Of a stretch of 64,000 bases of DNA, positions 5,701 to 39,034 are shown piece after piece. This DNA is from Neelides folsomi. Taxonomy: Eukaryota > Arthropoda > Collembola > Neelipleona > Neelidae. Under the pieces are notes generated by a model that was not told the DNA's origin, did not search any database, and saw only the letters and a program-made list of their open reading frames with translations. Position 1 is the stretch's first letter, and every line of letters starts with the position of its first letter. The stretch lies in the NCBI GenBank assembly GCA_034687125.1, contig JAQGBZ010000122.1:62001-126000 (forward strand). Reading direction: 5' to 3'. The translations under genes were made by a program, and so were the position numbers.

Positions 5701-6103
5701 AAAACTTTCATACTCAAAAAGGTTGAGGCTTCACAAAGTTTCTTTCTCCGATTCTCCAATGACTTTTAGATCTTGTTGGTTTTTTGAGATCCTCAGTTTT
5801 TATTTCTACTTGACCTCTTTGTTCAATGTTCTTCATACGTGTTATTTATTTATTTCAACATTCTTGCTTTGGTTCGGAAGAATCTGACAAACTATTTGTA
5901 TTACATTTAAAGAAATTCATCTTCTCAATTCCAACCTTCACTCTTTCACTTTGCATGTTAAGGAACAAATTAAAGAAGTTCAATCAACTCTCAAATGACT
6001 CTTGTTGAATAAACAATGTCCACAGGATTTGTAAAGTTTTGTGATCAAAGTGAGAAAAGAGGAACAATTTGACCAATTGTTTCACTTTAATTTAAATTCG
6101 CTT
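2791..6103. other. Non-coding sequence, no gene seen
   Basis: Mixed AT-rich sequence. The longest open frame (96 codons on the minus strand at 4212-4502) has no recognisable motif, and I treat it as chance. No inverted-repeat element was noticed. Confidence 0.45.
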
Positions 6104-6172
6104 ATGGCGTCCAACTTTCAAAGAGGAAGAAGAAGAACCAGATATAGATACTTGCCAGTTACGCTTAAACCG
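6104..6172 (+). CDS. Candidate first coding exon of the Cngl-type channel
   Basis: A start codon with G at +4 opens a 23-codon basic peptide (MASNFQRGRRRTRYRY then LPVTLKP). It ends at a strong donor (CCG|GTAAGC) in phase 0. The first secure channel exon, at 13741, also begins in phase 0 after a good acceptor (TTGTTTCAG), so the two would join in frame across a 7.6-kb intron. It is the first ATG after an in-frame stop. The link rests only on phase, donor quality and position. The true start could be another exon, in or outside the window. RNA evidence would decide. Confidence 0.33.
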
Positions 6173-28700: not shown

Positions 28701-31700
28701 TGAGTAGTTTGGATTTTAAAATTTAATATAATTTTACTTTTTATTTAAAGTGTATGTATGGGAAGTACCGAGTGTTTTTTTAAGGACATTGGTATGTACT
28801 TTACATTTGTACATATTAGATATAAAGGGAAACAATTAAATCTTCTCGAGGGCTGGATAACGTATAGTGAGAATTTAATGAATGGTTGAGTATTTCTGCG
28901 GTCAAAGTCGTTTAATTAATTCTTCCATTTGAAGGGGTTTCTATTAGCTTCCCTTTAAAGCTCATATTTTAATTATATAATGACTATTCTGGCTTCATGG
29001 TCGGGCTTATGAGAACTCTGAGCTTGTAATGTACAAAATGGGCCAGGGGGTTTTCATGGAGAGTATTGATGAATTGTCCTAATATTGAAATGAAAAATGG
29101 GGAATGTTCCCACAGAGTGAGTTGAGGTTCCATTGTTTCCCAACGACTGATTACCAAAGAATAAGATGAAGTGGAGTTCTAAGACGCTTCAAATGTCATG
29201 TGTCAGGTGACGATTTTTCAAGAATGCCAGCCCGAGTTTCTCCACGACCTCGTGCTAAAGATGAAAGCGTACATTTTTACTCCAGGGGACTTAATTTGTC
29301 GGAAGGGAGAAGTTGCAAGAGAAATGTTCATTATCGCCGACGGCATCTTGGAAGTTATCAGGTGAGAAAATTATATTTTTACTGCTTTCTTCGCATTATG
29401 AAACCATCAAATCATTTGAGCATAAAAGTGGAAAATATTAAAGCTACTCATACAATAAGTACAATGTAGGATAATATACCATACTGGTATAAGTAGTAAA
29501 AATGTCAAATATCAATAGTATAGAATCTTACACAGTATCACTACCTATATTAGTGAGTAACTTGAGGTATACCAATATGTATAATGGTATAATGGTAATA
29601 ATGAAAGTAATATGAATATATGTGAATAGTGAAAGGAGTTTAGCATAAAAAGGAAGGGTTATTTATTCGGAGCATTTTATTGATCAGTTCCAAAGTACCA
29701 TATTGATAGATTTATTGAAGGTTCATTTCATTTCCTAAACATCCAATATTTGGGGAGAAGTACAAATAAAGGATGAGCCATTATTCAGCGCATGAAGCTC
29801 ACCCGGATCCATTCCAGGGATTCCCCCGACTTCAAAGAGATCATCAAAAGAAGTATCTTGTCCACTTTTGTTACAACCATTTCGCCCTTTCTTGACAAAT
29901 ACATTCAATTCCCAGATTCTAACTTTTTCTCAAACTTTTTACTTTTGCTTAGGTATACGTAAAAATTAAACTTTTTCTACATAGATATAAAATACATCCC
30001 CAACATTAAAGATGTACATTCATTGGATCATAGGAAAAATTATCAACCCAACAATGCAGAACATATAATATGTATGAATTTTCCTTTTGTGTTCACATTA
30101 TTGAGATACAAATATTTTAAAACCATCTATTAATTAACATAAGTAATACTAACAATAACTATGTGAATATAAAGGTAAATAAAATCATTAATTGAACATT
30201 AGTCATTAATTATAGTTTAATGAGATTAATGACTGTAAAAGGGAATCATTCTCTCTAACTAATTACATGCCGTCAAATTTAAATATTCATACGAAACAAT
30301 AATTATGATATAATAATAGTGTAAAGTTAAACATTTCTTGTTAACATGCTTTAATATCAAAATTTATAGATCAAGTTTTGTTAATAATTATTCTTTATGA
30401 TCTCAAATCTATGTTAGATTTGGGTATATACCTATTATTTAGCCACCTCAAAAATTTTCGTATTATATGCCACCGTAACATTTACACCCAAAATTAAAAA
30501 ACTATATTAGGTATGCAACAATTGTTTTAATATTTAATGAAAGTAATATATTGTAATATTTTTTACCAATCAAAATGGTTTGATATCATTAACATATTCT
30601 TATGGAATTGTAAGGTATGTCCTATGTCCTCTCCTGTCCTTGTTACTTATCTTATCATTAACATATTCTTATGGTTTACCTATACACTATTGCTCTCAAA
30701 ATAACTTCAAGAATAGCTCTTTAAATGTAAGTTTAAGTCTCAGCTGGACTATTCACTTAAACGTACTTTTTACGGTGGCCAATAATATTCTTTAAGGTGG
30801 CTAATTGTATGGTGAATGTGTTTAATTTTTTTACTGTGGCTTCCTTATTTTTTAAGGTGGCGAATTAAATGGTATCCGTTAAATATATACTTATATCTTA
30901 CAAAATTTTTTTATGTAAAGGATTAATTTAGAAAATATTTATTTAATATAAATTCTGATATAATATAATAAATGATCTACATATACAATTTATAATCATA
31001 GGGTTTAGGTGTACATTTAAGCCCATGCTTAATGGTAGATTCAAAATATAAGTTTTATTCCCAAAGATATATTATACTTACATAGATAATAAAATTGATG
31101 ATAAATGAAATCTATAAAAGAGAAAAATCCATGTTGGGTGAGAATCTCATCCATGGACATATTAGTTGAGGAACTCCGATTTATGTCAAAGGCTTTTCAA
31201 TAAAGTTTATCGAATACTAAACAAAGTATTTACAAAAAACATCCAAACTTTCATTTTTAGCGATGCAGGAAAAGTGTTGACGACGATGCAAGCAGGAGAT
31301 TTTTTTGGTGAAATTGGAATCCTCAACCTCGACGGATTGAATAAGTGAGTTAAGAAAGGTGTATTACTTTTACGTATAGTTAAGATAGGAAAATGGATGT
31401 AATGGGATTTGATTTGATTTAAATGTTCAGGCGAACCGCTGATGTCCGATCTGTGGGTTATTCGGAGCTCTTTAGCCTTTCACGAGAAGATGTTTTGGCT
31501 GCAATGAAGGATTACCCAGAAGCTCAAGTGAGTCAATAGTAATTCAATTGGAGGAAAAATTAAAAACAAAGGGTGATCAAAGATGAAGATTCGCTAGAGA
31601 CTTGGTCTTTGATGCGGATCAAAAGGATGATTTTTTCTTTCTAATCTCATTTGTAACATTACAATAAGTTCACCAAGTTGTGTTTGGATAGGAAATCCTT

Positions 31701-34700
31701 CAAACTTTGGGAAGAAAGCGGTTGATGGAAGCTCGTAAGGCAAATGCCCCACCTCCGAAGAAAGAACTGCCCGGTGTTGTTCCGCCGCAAAAGGGTTCGC
31801 CACTCCTGGTGGGCCTCAAGGGGTCCGAAACTCCAGAGAGTGACACGACCGGGAAGAGGATCGTTGAGAAACTGAGGAGTGACGTGAAAGGATTAAGAAA
31901 CGCGATCCGAAGGAGCCGAAAAAGCAATTCCAGGTCTTATCTCACCCCCCAACCCTTATGAATATTTCCCCTTTAATCCCCATAATGCATCGTCACAAAG
32001 TGTCCCTTCTGAGCTGGATCTCACGGTTGACTCGCTATTAATTCCACTTCTTTTGGTAGATGGGAAAACAGGAATATAATTGAGGGGCATGTCCCTATAG
32101 ACCTGCTAGTTATTAGGAACCAGGAAAAAATTAGTTCTTTCCCTATTTGTTCAGGCACTCACGTCCTCAACCTCGATCTTCCCGGATGGCTCAAACTTTT
32201 CTCTAGAGAAACTTGACAAATACGATAATGGGCCCCACTCATTCATATTTCCGACCCAATTCTTCTCACAGTTCTCCCTTCCCACTTTATCCCTCTCCCA
32301 CATGGATTAACCCACTCCCAGTGAGTCTCGCCACTCTGGGCCATAATGAGGACAAAATATTCATTTGCTTTCTATTCAAACCCATTTCCATTCTGAAAGG
32401 AAAGTTTGGTTCAAAGGTGTTGAAAAGTCCTTAAATTCTTTCTATCTCTCTCTACATAACATATACATTCTGCTGAATACAGATATATATCATTTATTAA
32501 GTGTATGGGTGGGATGGAGTTTGGGTCTCCTTCCCAATTCATAAAGCCCACCATTATCGTTCATTTAACTGAGGTCGGGCGGAAGATTCTATTACTCATC
32601 TTGTCCATTGATCCTTGGTGTTTGTTTGCTGAGAGCACGCGAGCCCTCCATTTGCACATTGTATTAAAACTCAAGATGATGATGATGATTTGTGGGGAAT
32701 GTAATGGTAAGGTTTGAGAAGCAGAGTGTCGGTCGGAGACATGAAAAATGTTAGAGATCTTTCTTCTTAACATAACACTTTTCTCTTCTACTATTATATG
32801 TAACTTTTATATATTAGACGAACCGTTCGAGTCCATTGTGAGAGTTTTGTAGGAAGGAGATTTTAGTATTCTTCTGTCTCCTCACTTCCTACTTTCAAAT
32901 TTACAAATAATCTATCTAATATCATATCCAATGACTCAAATATGGATCGAAAAGTTGAGAACTTGGGAAGAATGCAAAAGCGGGTTGAGATGGCAGGCGG
33001 AGGAAAAATCCCTTCATTCCAGTACAATGGAAAATTGTTGTGATGAACAGATGAGGATGAAGGAAAAATATTATTGTTCCTGTCCTCCATCCTAAATTTT
33101 ATTCTTACATAATTTTATAATCCTCTTGGTCCAATGAAGACTCGAAGATTCTTCAAATTTCATTTTGAGAAACCATCTGGATAAAATGAGTTAATATTTA
33201 ACGAACCCTCGAGGAAAGAGTAATTAAAAAGAAGAACATTTTACAGAGAGCTTTGCCCAGGAATGCTAATCACCAAATGACAACTTGACTCTCTTTATAA
33301 TTCACGCCGTTTCATTGAGGAAATGAGGAAAGTTGGCCATGGCTGTATTTAGCCCCATATGATGAGCGGATTTAAACAATTATGTTGGCATTTGAAGAAT
33401 TATAGGACAGGAGATTAAGGGAACCAAGTGATGTACCTACATATAGTTTTATTCCCAAAGTTGGATTAGATAATTGGAGGAAAGTTATTAATTGAATTTC
33501 CCCTGCAGTAAGGAAGACTCAAGTGAGCCTGAATCGGGCAAAGACAAGGAGAGCGGAAGCGGACGGAGTCGGAAAGAAAGCAGCGGGAGCGATCGGAAAG
33601 GACGCGGAGTCCTCAAAAGAATGCACCACGTGATCAGTGACGAGAAGGAACGGGAGCCGTCAACGACGCCATCAACCTCAACTTCCTCGCCGCTTCCGGT
33701 CCCAAAGAAAGTGACACTTTTCCCGTCCTCGCCCCCGAAGGAAGAAGAGGGAAAGAAGGCGGGCGAACCGAAGGAAATTACTTCAAAATCTCGGCCAATG
33801 ACCGTTTTAACACTCCACCTGGGAGTCTTCTCTTGAGTTCATCCCGACACCCCACTTCCTTTTTATTTCCTCTTCAAAACAAATGGCCCCCATCACCCAA
33901 TTCCATCTACGTAGTAAAGTCAGGAGAACTAAACCTATTAGGATATTATTCTAGTTAAACATTTTTGAGGCCGTTTCTAGGCCAACTGACGACCTCTTAA
34001 CATCAACATTTTCAAACATCCGAACAAAAAACCCCTTTCGACTAAATTCAAAGGATCAATGTCAATAGGCTCAGCGTCAAAATGTCTTTTAAACTTTCTT
34101 TTTTGGATTTACCAACCAATGGCTTAACTTTACTTTTAACTTCATCGCCCCCAAAATTTATTTTCAACACATAAACATATTTATAATAAACCATACTTAT
34201 AGTTATGTTATAACAATAATACATATTATAAAGAATGATAACACACTTATTTAATATATATGCACACACTTATTTACTATATATATAGGTACATATTATT
34301 TTTAACCTTAAAACCTCATGTCTTGATAAAATCCTTTTTTACAACTTTTGCTCAATTGTTACATACAGTTGTACTTAGGATTAAATAGAATAGAAGAATG
34401 TTCAAACTTTCTTCTATTCAAATCCTATGCATTTATATGATACAATTGAGAATTCTTATCAATCTAATCCCAAAGTCTTTTATTGTCTTTTGAGAAGATT
34501 CCCAAAAGAGTTACAAGAATTCTCTCTAATGAGATTTCACACCTAAAGTGACGGAGTGTTATTGATTTCACAGGTGATTGGTGCGGGACTTCCGCTCATG
34601 CAGCGACTTCGACTCCTCAAGCAAAAAGAAGACAAGGAAAAGGCTGAAGTGACGAGTGTGAAAATCCAAACAACGACTGTTTTAGTCGAATCCCGACCCA

Positions 34701-37700
34701 AATCTCTACCATCCGATGGACCACCATCTTCCGTCCATTTCACACTCCCCGTTCCCGAGGTGGTCGAAGAAGAAAAAGAGGAACCGGCGGTTTCTATCCA
34801 AAAAGACCCATTGGTTTCAGGGCCGAGTTCCTCAACCCGCCGACCTTCCATTCTGGACATTAAAAATAAAAATGGCAAGGCCTATGGGTCAGTTGATGAC
34901 TTGTCCCCAGAGTTTTCCCGATTGCCATTTATCAAAAAGCTCCAGATCCTCAACGAGCGCCAGAAAATCGCCCAATTGCTCAAAAGTAAAAACTCTAATG
35001 CGGTGTTGACCCGAAGTACGAGCGAAGGATCGAGCGAGCCGAATTTGCCACCTCCGGACGACGAGCTTCATTCGATGGCCAAGGGACGGAGAACTCAGTC
35101 GAGCAGTGAGCAGTTCCTCATCCCCGACCTGTCAGGAGAGGACGAGTCGGAGGTCAAATGGGCTGACCCCACTCCGCCCCACTCCCCTGAAAGTAATGAC
35201 AATGAAACGGCTGAGCGAAGAAATTTGAAAAGTATTCTGAAACGATTGAACCAGAATATCCCTCTCATCTCTTCTCCTTTAGGGTCGCCTGCGTCCCAAG
35301 TGGGAAGAGCCGAAGAGGCAAAACTCCTCAGAGCTCCCACCGTTGAAGGATATGCGGCCAGACACAGAAAATATGCCAAAAACGTGACTTTCCAACGACA
35401 GGCGGTCAAGGCCATCTCGCCCGATTCTCCCCAACAACTCACAAGTGACAAACGGCCGGAATCGCCTTTGGTAAGAAATCATTAAATTTTAATTAAAGTC
35501 TCTTCTTAAATTAAATCTATCACCTTTATTGCTTTCCTTTTAAAACTTTCACTTCAATTCTCATCCATCAATTTTTTGAATTTATAGCTATTTTTGCATA
35601 ACAAAACTTTAAATGCCACTTTGGGATTTTAATTAATTTTCACACCTTTATAAATTATAATTAATAAATGTTAAAATTAATTACAACAAATTAAGGATCC
35701 AAATAATGACAATGGACTTTGTATAACATTGAACATTAAATTAATCATTAATTAAATTAACAATAGCTTAGATATACTAATTTATTTATTCTAAGGGTAA
35801 GTAAATATGGTAATGTATTGATGGAAAATGTATTAATTTGATTTAATATTCCTTTCAGTTCTACGAAAAATAGTCTGGGAATTATTTTAAAATTGCCAAT
35901 TGCATGCATTAATTGTAGATACAATGATATCTCTAGCACACTTACTGTTCCACTTTCCATTTTAATTATATTTTTCCAATAGTCAAAAAAATATTTTATA
36001 AACATGGAACAATTTATTAATGGGGATAATTGAGAAATCACTCAAATTATTTAGGTACTTTCAAATCGGTTTTAACAGTAAGTGTGGGAGAGTGAAAGGG
36101 ACAGTAGAATTTATATTTATATAAGTATGTATTTGTTTAAATCATTTAATTACGTAGATTTGCATTATTACCTTTATATGAATTATGACAAATAGTATAA
36201 AATTCTATATACATAAATTCCTCAAAATTAATTTTTGATTAAAAATAATCAGAATTAATTAATTTTAATAAAATATTATTTTAATTATTGTTGGCTTATT
36301 GTGTTATTGTACAAATACGAATATTCCGCAATTATCATTTATTAGATTTTTAGTGAATTTTTACTATTAAATCAACATACTAATAACATCAATATTGGGG
36401 CCGACCAGTTTGGCTTTGAGGGAGAGATAGTATTCACGAGTTGCCTTGTTAAGCAATTTTTGGCCCTGAGCTTGCCTGGATGGGTGAACGGGGGTGACCC
36501 GTTACACTGATCAGGAGGAGCCGGGGTTCGAAGTTGGCGGTGAGGGGTTCACTTTGGCGAAAGGGCCAGAGCTCACCAAGAGGTGAAGCCGGGTCGGCCA
36601 GTGGCCCCTACCAGGTCAGTTGAGGACTAAGTCCAAAGGTCTTCCCATTTCTCTCCCTCAGAGCACATAGCGGTAGCGGCCGCAACCATTGCACACACAC
36701 GGTCATAATTAAGTATCCCCCATGGAAGCATACAAATTAGTCTAATACCAATAGCGTATACAACACGGGGGTAAATTTCTCACCACTAATCAATCTAATA
36801 TTGATAATGTGTGCCATACGGAGTAAAGAAATGCTTGTAAATAGGCTGAGACAGACTGCAATGGGCCTCTAGGCCTGCGCGGCTGTGATGGTAACATCAA
36901 AATCTCTCTAATATACATACATACAACATCAATATTGTTCTTATATCAAAATAATAGATTAACAAATTAATATTTTCAAATAAAATATTTTTAACACATC
37001 CCATATATTACATATATGTTAATTATTTTTATCTGCAAAATATATAAATTTTCAGCTTTATAAAAATATTCAGCTTCTGTTTTAAATGCACGTTTTAAAA
37101 TCACAAATGAAGCTTAAATGTCTATGAAATTTAAACCCACTTTGCTCCGCATGTGTAAAATTTTTGTAAAAGTAGTTAGTACATAAGTAAAAAATATAAA
37201 ACATTGTGGATCTTGTTCCTCCATTGCCTTTTTCTATGACCCAATGTAAAGAATGAGGAGTGAAAAAATATTTTTTAACTCACAGTTTGATCCTCGTAAC
37301 GAAGAGAGACAAAGGACGACGATTACGTACAAAACAAGAGACGTGGAAATGAGCGAAACTTTTGCTCTCAACATGGGCCTTGGTTCAATTCAGGACGAGT
37401 ACATTGGAGGAGTCTTTCTCGGAATCAAAAATATCATGCAATCAAAGATGGTCGAGCTCCAGAACAAATTCCAAGACAAGTATGAAATCCTCGAAGAGAA
37501 GTTGCGTGAACGTGAAGAAATCATCTCAGTCCTTCACCGTCGCATCATCGAATTGGAAACAGGAGTCGAAGGTGAGGAACTGCGACCAAATGAGATTCGA
37601 AGAAGGCGAATGCGAACTCATTCCCTACATTCCAACGGCGACTCCGACTCCGACGTGGAGGACGATGATGACGAGGAGGAGGAGCATTTCTTTAGGAGAC

Positions 37701-39034
37701 CTTACCATGCCGGGAGTTCGTATCTGTTCAGTCGGGGGGATTCCATCGATACGGTGATCAGCAACCAGGACACAATCGATGATGAAGTTTTCGCCTCTCT
37801 TAATGTTGAACTCCGACCAGAGAGGCAAATCGAGTCGCCCCCTGGGCCTCAAATTCACCCGCTCTCGCTTTCCAACCTCGATCAGAGAAACGAGGGCTCA
37901 ATTGAGAGAGAAAACTTGACAGAAGGCGAGAGGCCGCTTTGGGAATTTGAGTTTCATTGTGAGGAGTTTGGAAATGCCAGACGTCGTCGATCCGCCCAGA
38001 CCTCTACCCCTCAAGGACCAAGTGGAGAAAGGCCGGGAGAAGTCCGGGTCGAGTCAGTTGCCCTCGACATTGAGAGTTCCTCTGAGGAGGAGAGCGAACA
38101 AGAGCGAGTCAAACCCCAACCGCTCAAAGAAACGTCAAGTGAGTCAGGGGAGTCGGACAGCACGGACGGAGACGACCTGGACAATAAAAACTGGGAAGTG
38201 AAGTTGCTAGCAAAGGAAATGCATCGAATCGAAGAGGAAACTGACCGGGCCAACGATGAAGAAGTAAAGAAAATGGTCACGCTCTCAAACCAAATCTCCA
38301 ATCTTACAAGTGTTGTCAACGAGGGAGCTCTTTCTCCAAATGAGCTCGACATGCTCGAGTCCGTCCTCGCCAATAAGTCAAAGAAGGTCCGGTCGCTGTG
38401 CAAAGCATTCAGTGTCGAGTCGGAAGCTTCGACCTCGGCGACGGCAGTCCGAAGAGGTCGACGAAGTTTTGATACCCGGATAGAGGTCAAGAGTCCGACC
38501 GAGCCGGGTAGTTCCCTCGGGACCAAGAAATTGAGTCCTGGAGAGCGTCTGGAGTTACAAAGGCTTTCCTGCGAACGGAAATTCCCTTCCACGATGAGAC
38601 GGCAAACGAGTCTTCGCGAGTCCCATGGACAGGAAATGATGCGACTCGGTGAGTTGGGTCAAATCGAAGGCGGAGGTCGAAGGAAAAGCACCGCAGAACC
38701 AAAGTCATTTCTCAACCGATTCAACTTCCTCAGACAACTGACGACCAAGTCCAAGGAGGAGGACTCGACCACGTCTGTGGCCACGACCTCGTCCATGGCC
38801 ACGACTTCGTTCTCGACCAATGCTAGTGTGAAGAGCGAGTCAGCCCCAAGACGGAATTCTGTCGGAGGTCTTTTGCCGTCCTTCATCTCCTCAGCTCTCT
38901 TCAGTCGGGAAGAGGAAATTGATGGGGGCGGGACGGAAGCGGGAATTTACACGTTGCCTCTTCCAGGACCTTCGGGGTCGCCTTCTGAGCAGCCAAAGTC
39001 AAGTGGAGAGAATCAGCCACTTCTGAAAAAATAA
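13741..39034 (+). CDS. Cngl: Cngl-type cyclic-nucleotide-gated cation channel subunit (17 secure exons)
   Basis: Plasma-membrane cation channel gated by cyclic nucleotides. Exons joined in phase: 13741-13991, 18471-18621, 21329-21532, 22472-22701, 23324-23632, 25187-25245, 26975-27036, 27330-27362, 27471-27526, 27631-27736, 29207-29361, 31261-31344, 31431-31527, 31692-31933, 33509-~33803, 34574-35470, 37286-39034; about 1,659 residues. The first two exons encode a charged N-terminus. S1 (SFFFYWLMILTFCVLYNLW) lies in 21329-21532, S2-S3 with RTGYLEQGLMVY in 22472-22701, and S4 to the pore in 23324-23632 with filter TTIGDLPTP. S6 and C-linker follow (GQVGNVITNRNANRLEFERL). The nucleotide pocket (FFGEIGILNLDGLNK, then RTADV) lies in 31261-31527. 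The last exon starts with a coiled coil, as in CNGA tails, then a long acidic, Ser-rich tail. The 3' border of the 33.5-kb exon is uncertain (33717, 33803 or 33826 would all be in phase). The start is not proven (see 6104). Confidence 0.93.
13992..18470. other. Channel intron, no gene seen
   Basis: Intron between the first two secure exons. It alternates AT-rich and moderately GC-rich patches. A 10-bp inverted match (AGTAGCGATC) bounds 16912-17083 but is too short to call an element. No exon-like frame was recognised. Confidence 0.55.
18622..21328. other. Channel intron carrying an inverted-repeat element
   Basis: Contains the element at 20126-20636. Long minus-strand frames here (for example 18767-19186) show no family motif and are treated as chance. 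Confidence 0.55.
20126..20636. mobile_element. MITE-like element with GGGGTATCTCAAAATT inverted repeats
   Basis: The left arm (TATGTGGGTTTGAAATTTAA, then GGGGTATCTCAAAATT) reappears inverted at 20596-20636 with few mismatches, giving arms of about 40 bp around a 510-bp AT-rich unit. No transposase frame is present. Weaker similarity continues inward in both arms. Exact ends and target duplication are uncertain. Confidence 0.55.
21533..22471. other. Channel intron, no gene seen
   Basis: AT-rich intron between the S1 and S2-S3 exons. Nothing recognisable. Confidence 0.55.
22702..23323. other. Channel intron, no gene seen
   Basis: AT-rich intron separating the S3/S4 exon from the S4-pore exon. 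It splits an arginine codon (AG|A). Nothing else recognised. Confidence 0.55.
23633..25186. other. Channel intron, no gene confirmed
   Basis: The intron follows the pore exon. Overlapping frames at 23989-24331 on both strands are open for 80-110 codons in a GC-richer patch, but they show no motif and are not splice-bounded in a convincing way. Confidence 0.5.
25246..26974. other. Channel intron filled largely by an inverted-repeat transposon
   Basis: About half of this intron is the 900-bp element at 25595-26494. The flanks are AT-rich and featureless. Confidence 0.6.
25595..26494. mobile_element. Foldback/MITE-type DNA transposon with arms of about 250 bp
   Basis: The left end (TAATAGGATGACCGTATTTA) is repeated inverted at the right end. 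The two arms then stay similar for roughly 250 bp, including the GGGCCCTGTAGTCTCATTTA and AGGTGTCAAAAGTCA stretches. TA lies outside both ends (25593-25594 and 26495-26496), fitting a TA duplication. The centre (about 25900-26220) shows no transposase. The arms are very similar, so the copy may be fairly young. The superfamily cannot be told from the sequence alone. Confidence 0.75.
27737..29206. other. Channel intron carrying an inverted-repeat element
   Basis: Holds the element at about 28014-28618. Otherwise AT-rich with no exon-like frame. Confidence 0.55.
28014..28618. mobile_element. MITE-like element with arms of about 70 bp
   Basis: The left arm (CATATGGGAATGAGCAAGC, then TAAAACGATATGATTCGGAA and GGGCGTTTCTAGAGATTT) returns inverted at 28540-28616 with a handful of substitutions. 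The interior is AT-rich with no coding frame. TA dinucleotides sit near both ends, but the exact termini are uncertain by a few bases. Confidence 0.65.
29362..31260. other. Channel intron within the cyclic-nucleotide-binding domain
   Basis: Interrupts the binding-domain code at a serine codon (AG|C). Contains the inverted-repeat unit at 30438-30866 and a 21-bp direct repeat (ATCATTAACATATTCTTATGG at about 30585 and 30652). No gene seen. Confidence 0.55.
30438..30866. mobile_element. Inverted-repeat element with GCCACCT...GCCACCGTAA arms
   Basis: The left arm has TTTAGCCACCT followed about 25 bp later by GCCACCGTAA. The same pair returns inverted at 30765-30804 (TACGGTGGCC, then AAGGTGGCTAA) and again, more diverged, at 30831-30866 (ACTGTGGC, then AAGGTGGCGAA). 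This gives one left arm and two right arms. Either an insertion or a duplication of the right end could explain it. No transposase is present. Confidence 0.5.
31934..33508. other. Channel intron, no gene seen
   Basis: Mixed-composition intron with no recognisable exon, repeat or RNA gene. Confidence 0.5.
33804..34573. other. Channel intron with an uncertain 5' border
   Basis: The upstream exon frame stays open to a stop at 33834-33836, and none of its possible donors is strong. The acceptor at 34573 (TTTCACAG) is good and demands phase 0. The intron is AT-rich and otherwise empty. Confidence 0.45.
36385..36397. repeat. Left target-site duplication of the SINE-like element
   Basis: AACATCAATATTG directly precedes the GC-rich insert and is repeated exactly at 36925-36937. 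Confidence 0.75.
36398..36924 (+). mobile_element. SINE-like retroposon with 5S rRNA promoter motifs (SINE3-like)
   Basis: A GC-rich insert in an AT-rich intron, bounded by identical 13-bp direct repeats (AACATCAATATTG) and ending in an ATACATACATAC tail; both are hallmarks of retroposition. Near its 5' end GTTAAGCAA (36448-36456) is followed 21 bp later by GGATGGGTGA (36478-36487). These are the 5S rRNA internal control region box A and box C sequences, at the spacing of a real 5S gene. The start (GCCGACCA) also resembles the start of 5S rRNA (GCC..CGACCA) at about the right distance. 5S-derived SINEs are known as SINE3. The origin of the body and tail is not recognised. No protein frame. 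Confidence 0.72.
36925..36937. repeat. Right target-site duplication of the SINE-like element
   Basis: Exact copy of the 13-mer at 36385-36397, directly after the ATAC-repeat tail. Confidence 0.75.

Follow-up and report, generated by a model that had tools for sequence, protein, structure and literature searches.

A low-copy SINE family with a probable 5S-type promoter in the genome of the collembolan Neelides folsomi

The analysed window is a stretch of 64,000 nucleotides from the genome of Neelides folsomi (assembly GCA_034687125.1, contig JAQGBZ010000122.1, positions 62,001 to 126,000 of the forward strand). An insert of 527 bp lies on its plus strand at 36398-36924 and is bracketed by exact 13-bp direct repeats, AACATCAATATTG, at 36385-36397 and 36925-36937. 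The G+C fraction of the insert is 0.497, whereas the 1-kb flanks have values of 0.243 and 0.391. Its 3′ end is formed by three ATAC units (36913-36924). The initial annotation had described a GC-rich insert of this length with a perfect duplication and an ATAC-repeat end, and the letters of the window bear this out. Two long open frames on the plus strand, 34547-35485 and 37250-39034, flank the insert. A cyclic-nucleotide-binding fragment was detected upstream, at about 29276-29362 (E-value 8.7e-6; 26.1 bits, slightly below the Pfam cut-off of 27.5). The Pfam search of six frames in the immediate surroundings of the insert (approximately 34.5-39.4 kb) returned no family, and no relative with a solved structure was found for the neighbouring open frame. 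It is plausible that the insert lies in a possible cyclic-nucleotide-gated channel gene, probably within an intron.

The copy in the window comprises a head, a body, and a 3′ tail module. The first 50 bases of the head (36398-36447) are followed by a 5S-like internal control region (36448-36490), which includes GTTAAGCAA at 36448-36456 (element positions 51-59) and GGATGGGTGA at 36478-36487 (element positions 81-90); we take these motifs to be the cores of box A and box C, respectively. A run of five T residues (36457-36461) lies between the boxes. The left and right arms of a 15-nt inverted repeat (93%) are located at 36413-36427 and 36650-36664. The body (36491-36788) is family-specific and matches no Rfam family. 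The tail module, on which the counting of copies was based, occupies 36789-36924 and includes a short hairpin of the GATG-GTAA-CATC type (36885-36900) near the 3′ end.

The host assembly searched has 840 contigs and a total length of 75.1 Mb. It contains TTAGG arrays on four contigs (19 overlapping hits of the pattern); the cuticle-type domain PF00379 was matched 39 times and the odorant-binding-protein domain PF01395 only twice. TTAGG arrays and cuticle-type PF00379 domains are arthropod marks. In total, 29 copies of the element were found, a number that is a lower bound, of which 14 have the 5′ head and 15 lack it. The whole insert used as a query produced 34 matches, the head 15 (14 copies, one of them split), and the tail 29, corresponding to 29 copies; all 14 head copies and all 34 whole-insert matches fall within the same 29. 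Thus, 28 copies exist besides that of the window, and the family proposed initially is a real one. The head, body, and tail follow each other without a large interruption in 10 of the 14 head copies, including L016, which has no 3′ end, and L018, from which about 50 bases are deleted. The four other head copies (L017, L019, L024, and L025) are interrupted or chimeric. The majority consensus, built from 16 of the 29 copies in 18 rows (two copies were represented by two pieces each), has a length of 536 bp. Its longest stop-to-stop frame is 102 codons, and the other five range from 39 to 63 codons. The family consists of short dispersed copies without coding capacity.

The substitution level relative to the consensus varied from 0.5% to 5.9% among the rows, except for L018 (11.2%). 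The copy in the window differs by 3.4% and six indel events, and another full copy by 0.6%. This range of divergence indicates that the SINE family has been active over some time and that the copy in the window is middle-aged within it. The copy had been called young; its duplication is perfect, as expected, but its divergence places it among the copies that are not especially young. The first 50 bases of the head are conserved, with 8 substitutions in 492 sites across the 10 copies compared (1.63%). The corresponding values for the 5S-like block and the tail were 2.95% and 2.43%, so that the block is less conserved than either of these parts.

Exact duplications of 9-15 bp were detected for 17 of the 28 copies tested, compared with 6 of 756 mismatched flank pairs; for lengths of at least 10 bp, the numbers were 15 of 28 and 0 of 756. 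The test searched for an exact common word in the two flanks, with L016 left out as having no 3′ end and with several ends set by hand. Duplications of at least 9 bp were present in 11 of 13 copies with the head and 6 of 15 without it, and 11 of the 28 copies had no 9-bp duplication. The duplicated sequences differ between the copies, which are dispersed. All the headless copies (15 of 29) retain the 3′ module, whole or partial. Target duplications together with a fixed 3′ end and 5′ truncation are the signature of target-primed reverse transcription by LINE machinery, and we infer that the copies were inserted by this LINE-type route.

Several copies have an unusual structure. In L024 (1002-1299), head positions 1-58 are followed by 107 bp of foreign sequence with internal repeats and then by the tail, and the whole has its own 14-bp duplication; its chimeric structure suggests template switching or a later exchange. 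In L025 (1001-2530), the middle is swapped for about 1.24 kb of another repeat, while the outer 15-bp duplication is intact. Counting L025 itself, 77 pieces of the genome match the repeat that fills it. This repeat has inverted parts, and a transposase-like fragment was named by eye only. Four headless copies (L020, L021, L022, and L023) start within 9 bp of each other, at element positions 309-317, which could reflect a stop of reverse transcription, a second start, or a sub-element. The tails of L071 and L067, located on different contigs, have an identical sequence in their 3′ flanks and therefore both lie within, or carry, another repeat. At approximately 5925-6142, L065 contains a diverged sequence related to the tail (identity about 75%) and, as judged by eye, to part of the body, with no recognisable head; it is possibly an older subfamily.

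Eight near-identical 5S rRNA genes of the host were used as the reference; a ninth, partial match on contig C650 was left out. Head positions 51-93 of the window copy align with positions 51-93 of the host 5S rRNA without gaps, with 32 of 43 positions identical, and this block covers both boxes. The best ungapped diagonal between the insert and 5S has an offset of 0 and a score of 21, the next one scoring 8. The box A and box C motifs, previously noted at the 5S spacing, indeed occupy element positions 51-59 and 81-90, identical to those in the host 5S genes. With box limits as we presume them, 11 of 15 bases of box A and 14 of 18 bases of box C are identical in the window copy, as are 4 of 6 bases of the intermediate element (IE), the limits of which are likewise presumed. 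Outside the block, ungapped identity reaches 13 of 50 positions before it and 7 of 26 at positions 94-119, and the match to 5S is at the chance level. The likeness to 5S claimed for the first bases of the insert fails accordingly; the likeness holds over about 43 nt of the promoter and is lost elsewhere.

A chance origin of the match was rejected by comparisons with shuffled sequences and with real genomic stretches. After dinucleotide shuffling of the insert, the local alignment score was reached in 0 of 2000 shuffles under 2/-3 scoring and in 1 of 2000 under 1/-1, and the same counts (0 of 2000 and 1 of 2000) were obtained when the 5S gene was shuffled instead. Shuffles of the consensus reached its 5S score in 1 of 5000 cases with both strands considered. 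None of the 794 scores calculated for real sequences (397 stretches drawn from the window and 30 fetched loci, each scored on both strands) reached that of the block, the best being 26 versus 33. The pattern GTTAAGCA-N17-26-GGATGGGTGA occurs 19 times in the whole genome, namely in the 8 full-length 5S genes and in 11 of the 14 head copies, and not once in the reversed control. The spacing between the boxes includes one extra base in 8 of these 11 copies and is that of 5S in 3, including the copy in the window. With cmscan at E ≤ 10, the Rfam 5S model RF00001 matched none of 13 head copies, among them L018 (the fourteenth, L024, with only 58 head bases, was left out), and the Rfam search of the window at the gathering score gave no match to the insert. 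When the 5S gene served as a blastn query at E ≤ 10, the matches were to the 5S genes and to the fragment on C650, with no SINE copy among them.

The assembly contains 18 matches to the reverse transcriptase (RT) domain PF00078, 15 of which are above the cut-off. One side observation concerns locus L037 (G000:C180:72296), a Gypsy-type element whose long open frame (1630 aa) contains a match to an OTU-type protease. Contig C3 is the only one among the PF00078 contigs that also bears a head or tail match. It has one tail copy near an RT fragment. The C3 RT was ruled out as the partner LINE, since an 11-bp duplication around this tail, ATATAGTAAAA, marks it as a separate insertion and a frame judged Harbinger-like by eye lies between the two. 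The tail was compared with 19 RT-bearing loci on both strands, using 20 simple shuffles each, and two small excesses over the shuffles were recorded, in L040 and L050. In L040, a minus-strand match with one gap covers 18 of the final 19 bases of the tail, about 220 bases 5′ of the RT match; this may be a chance match or the remnant of another 3′ end. In L050, a gapped 45-base match lies about 400 bases 3′ of the RT match and stops short of the 3′ end of the tail. Both matches are weak, and neither occupies a 3′ end, as would be needed for a partner LINE. A 22-base pattern from the region of the 3′ hairpin, searched with up to three mismatches, was found at 25 sites, all in known copies, with one site in the reversed control. 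Thus, no LINE with the SINE tail was found among the RT loci of the assembly, and the comparison of the 3′ end with the LINE tails of the same genome yielded no partner. The partner LINE may have diverged too far or be absent from the assembly. A shared LINE tail is common among SINEs and is not required, and some SINEs for which no LINE was identified are also described in the available part of PMC8010984.

The RNA of copy L011, the one copy folded, had a predicted energy of −190.7 kcal/mol (z = −4.33 relative to 100 shuffles). In this predicted fold, the right arm of the repeat (bases 236-250) is paired with bases 16-30. The 3′ hairpin was not more stable than its shuffles in the three copies considered (z = −1.12, −0.64, and −0.33), and nearly no paired changes were seen by eye in the 28-row alignment. 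The consensus contains a single run of at least four T residues, at positions 61-64 between the boxes, which is extended to five in the window copy. Within 31 bases downstream of the host 5S genes, T5 or longer was found in seven of eight; the remaining gene, L032, has only TTTT there. Since the host 5S genes are mostly followed by T5 or longer, the run between the boxes may hamper RNA polymerase III (Pol III), and the copy in the window would be the most affected; the TTTT or TTTTT is a possible Pol III pause or stop.

Taken together, it is probable that the insert belongs to a non-autonomous, low-copy family of the SINE3 type, with a type-1 (5S-type) Pol III promoter in its head. The SINE3 assignment made initially is supported with corrections, the likeness to 5S being that of a promoter block of about 43 nt. 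Judging by its sequence, the family would be transcribed by Pol III and mobilized by a helper LINE. TFIIIA, TFIIIC, and Pol III would use the internal boxes A and C, and transcription would start at the first base of the element. The transcript would have about 536 nt and end in ATAC repeats, and the LINE reverse transcriptase would prime on this 3′ end at a staggered nick. A target duplication of 9-15 bp would come to flank each new copy, and incomplete reverse transcription would give rise to the 5′-truncated copies. Several observations weigh against this reading, namely the failure of the Rfam 5S model, the lower conservation of the block, the T run between the boxes, the lack of a LINE with this tail among the RT loci, and the 11 of 28 copies in which no 9-bp duplication was detected.

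Three other explanations were weighed. The head could belong to a tRNA-derived SINE (SINE2) with A and B boxes, its 5S match having arisen by chance, and TGGCTTTGAGG at consensus position 14 and GGTTCGAAGTT at position 128 do resemble the A and B boxes in the form that we assume for them. An equal or better pair was present in 165 of 500 shuffles, no tRNA was called by ARAGORN (bacterial code) in the window or by cmscan in 13 of the 14 head copies, and the 5S match exceeds its controls; a tRNA head was rejected on these grounds, and this origin is very improbable. An internally deleted LINE derivative, with the head as the 5′ UTR, the tail as the 3′ UTR, and the 5S-like block as the promoter of the LINE, would account for L024 and L025, in which the same head and tail, with their own 14- and 15-bp duplications, enclose other sequence; their ends were therefore able to travel without the body. 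The tail copy near the RT fragment on C3 also fits. Against this, no other PF00078 contig has a head or tail match, the C3 tail has the separate duplication and intervening Harbinger-like frame described above, and the filling of L025 belongs to another repeat with its 77 genome pieces. Membership of a larger RT-bearing coding transposon was rejected, as none of the 18 RT matches is joined to a head or tail, and we regard a LINE derivative as improbable. The 5′ end fits neither a tRNA nor an RT-bearing element better than it fits 5S rRNA.

The block could also have evolved toward a TFIIIA-type promoter by convergence, instead of stemming from a 5S transcript. Consistent with this, the 5S likeness is limited to the promoter, the Rfam 5S model fails on the head copies, and the older copy L018 is no nearer to 5S over the whole block, where both L018 and the window copy are identical to it at 32 of 43 positions (13 versus 14 of 18 in box C). 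The blastn search, in which no SINE copy was recovered, and the lower conservation of the block among the 10 copies likewise speak against descent from 5S. On the other hand, the bases between the boxes (TTGGGCCC in the consensus) match 5S too, and L018, the most diverged copy compared, is identical to the host 5S at 18 of 19 positions from box A onward, because of which descent from 5S was favoured over convergence. According to the available part of PMC10886601, published SINE3 families likewise retain mainly the promoter and diverge upstream too, so the likeness beyond the promoter was not treated as defining. Convergence is accordingly given a low probability, and the block appears to stem from a 5S gene. 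A further-reaching version of the SINE3 reading is rather unlikely, namely that this is an independent 5S-type SINE that kept only the TFIIIA block at its original distance from the start, acquired an otherwise new RNA predicted to be strongly structured, and has outlived or lost its LINE, leaving about 29 copies and no visible helper.

5S-type SINEs are known from fish, mammals, and some insects. SINE3 of zebrafish, reportedly described by Kapitonov and Jurka in 2003, is said to have a 5S-type head, and its likeness to the N. folsomi family is one of class only. No description recognisable as this family was met in the literature searched, and the family is probably undescribed, judging from the literature and not from repeat databases. 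The suggestion of a possibly undescribed family is therefore probable for the family itself, but 5S-derived SINEs as such are already known in insects, having been published in moths and one beetle (PMC3272025, PMC8010984, and PMC10886601, as far as their available parts extend). General knowledge of mobile elements is unchanged by the N. folsomi family. Being compact, set in a genome of 75 Mb, and having divergences from 0.6% to 11% and clean duplications, it offers a suitable case in which to ask what minimal part of 5S suffices for a mobile promoter. In the accessible text of the cited sources, tRNA-derived SINEs far outnumber the 5S-derived ones (PMC10886601), whose promoters are considered weak in view of the reliance of type-1 promoters on upstream signals (PMC3272025 and PMC8010984).

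The lepidopteran families PxSE4, PxSE5, LaSE2, and CsSE2 also have a 5S-type head with boxes A, IE, and C, and short tandem-repeat tails are found among them too, (ATGT)n in PxSE5 and (TGA)n in PxSE4 and CsSE2 (PMC8010984). They are 294-389 bp long and have 532-4415 copies (Table 1 of PMC8010984), compared with about 536 bp and the 29 copies found here, the N. folsomi family being longer and, by these counts, rarer. The last 43 bp of PxSE5 are common to a named LINE with 84% identity (PMC8010984), whereas none was found for the N. folsomi family. HaSE3 of Helicoverpa armigera likewise has a 5S-derived head that matches best in boxes A, IE, and C, and its low abundance, suggested by its authors, is like that of the N. 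folsomi family (PMC3272025). Its body and tail are common to a tRNA-type SINE, and the tail is very similar to that of the LINE HaRTE1.1 (PMC3272025), neither of which was seen here. The N. folsomi family was set apart from HaSE3 and the four lepidopteran families above by their descriptions in these sources, not by their sequences. SINE3-1_TC of Tribolium castaneum, mentioned in PMC3272025, is also a 5S-derived insect SINE, likened here by class alone. Ajax, a nemertean TRIM with a 5S promoter, likewise retains only the box A-IE-box C portion of 5S according to the available text of PMC10886601; it is an LTR element with 5-bp duplications, whereas the N. folsomi family has duplications of 9-15 bp, 3′ repeats, and 5′ truncation.
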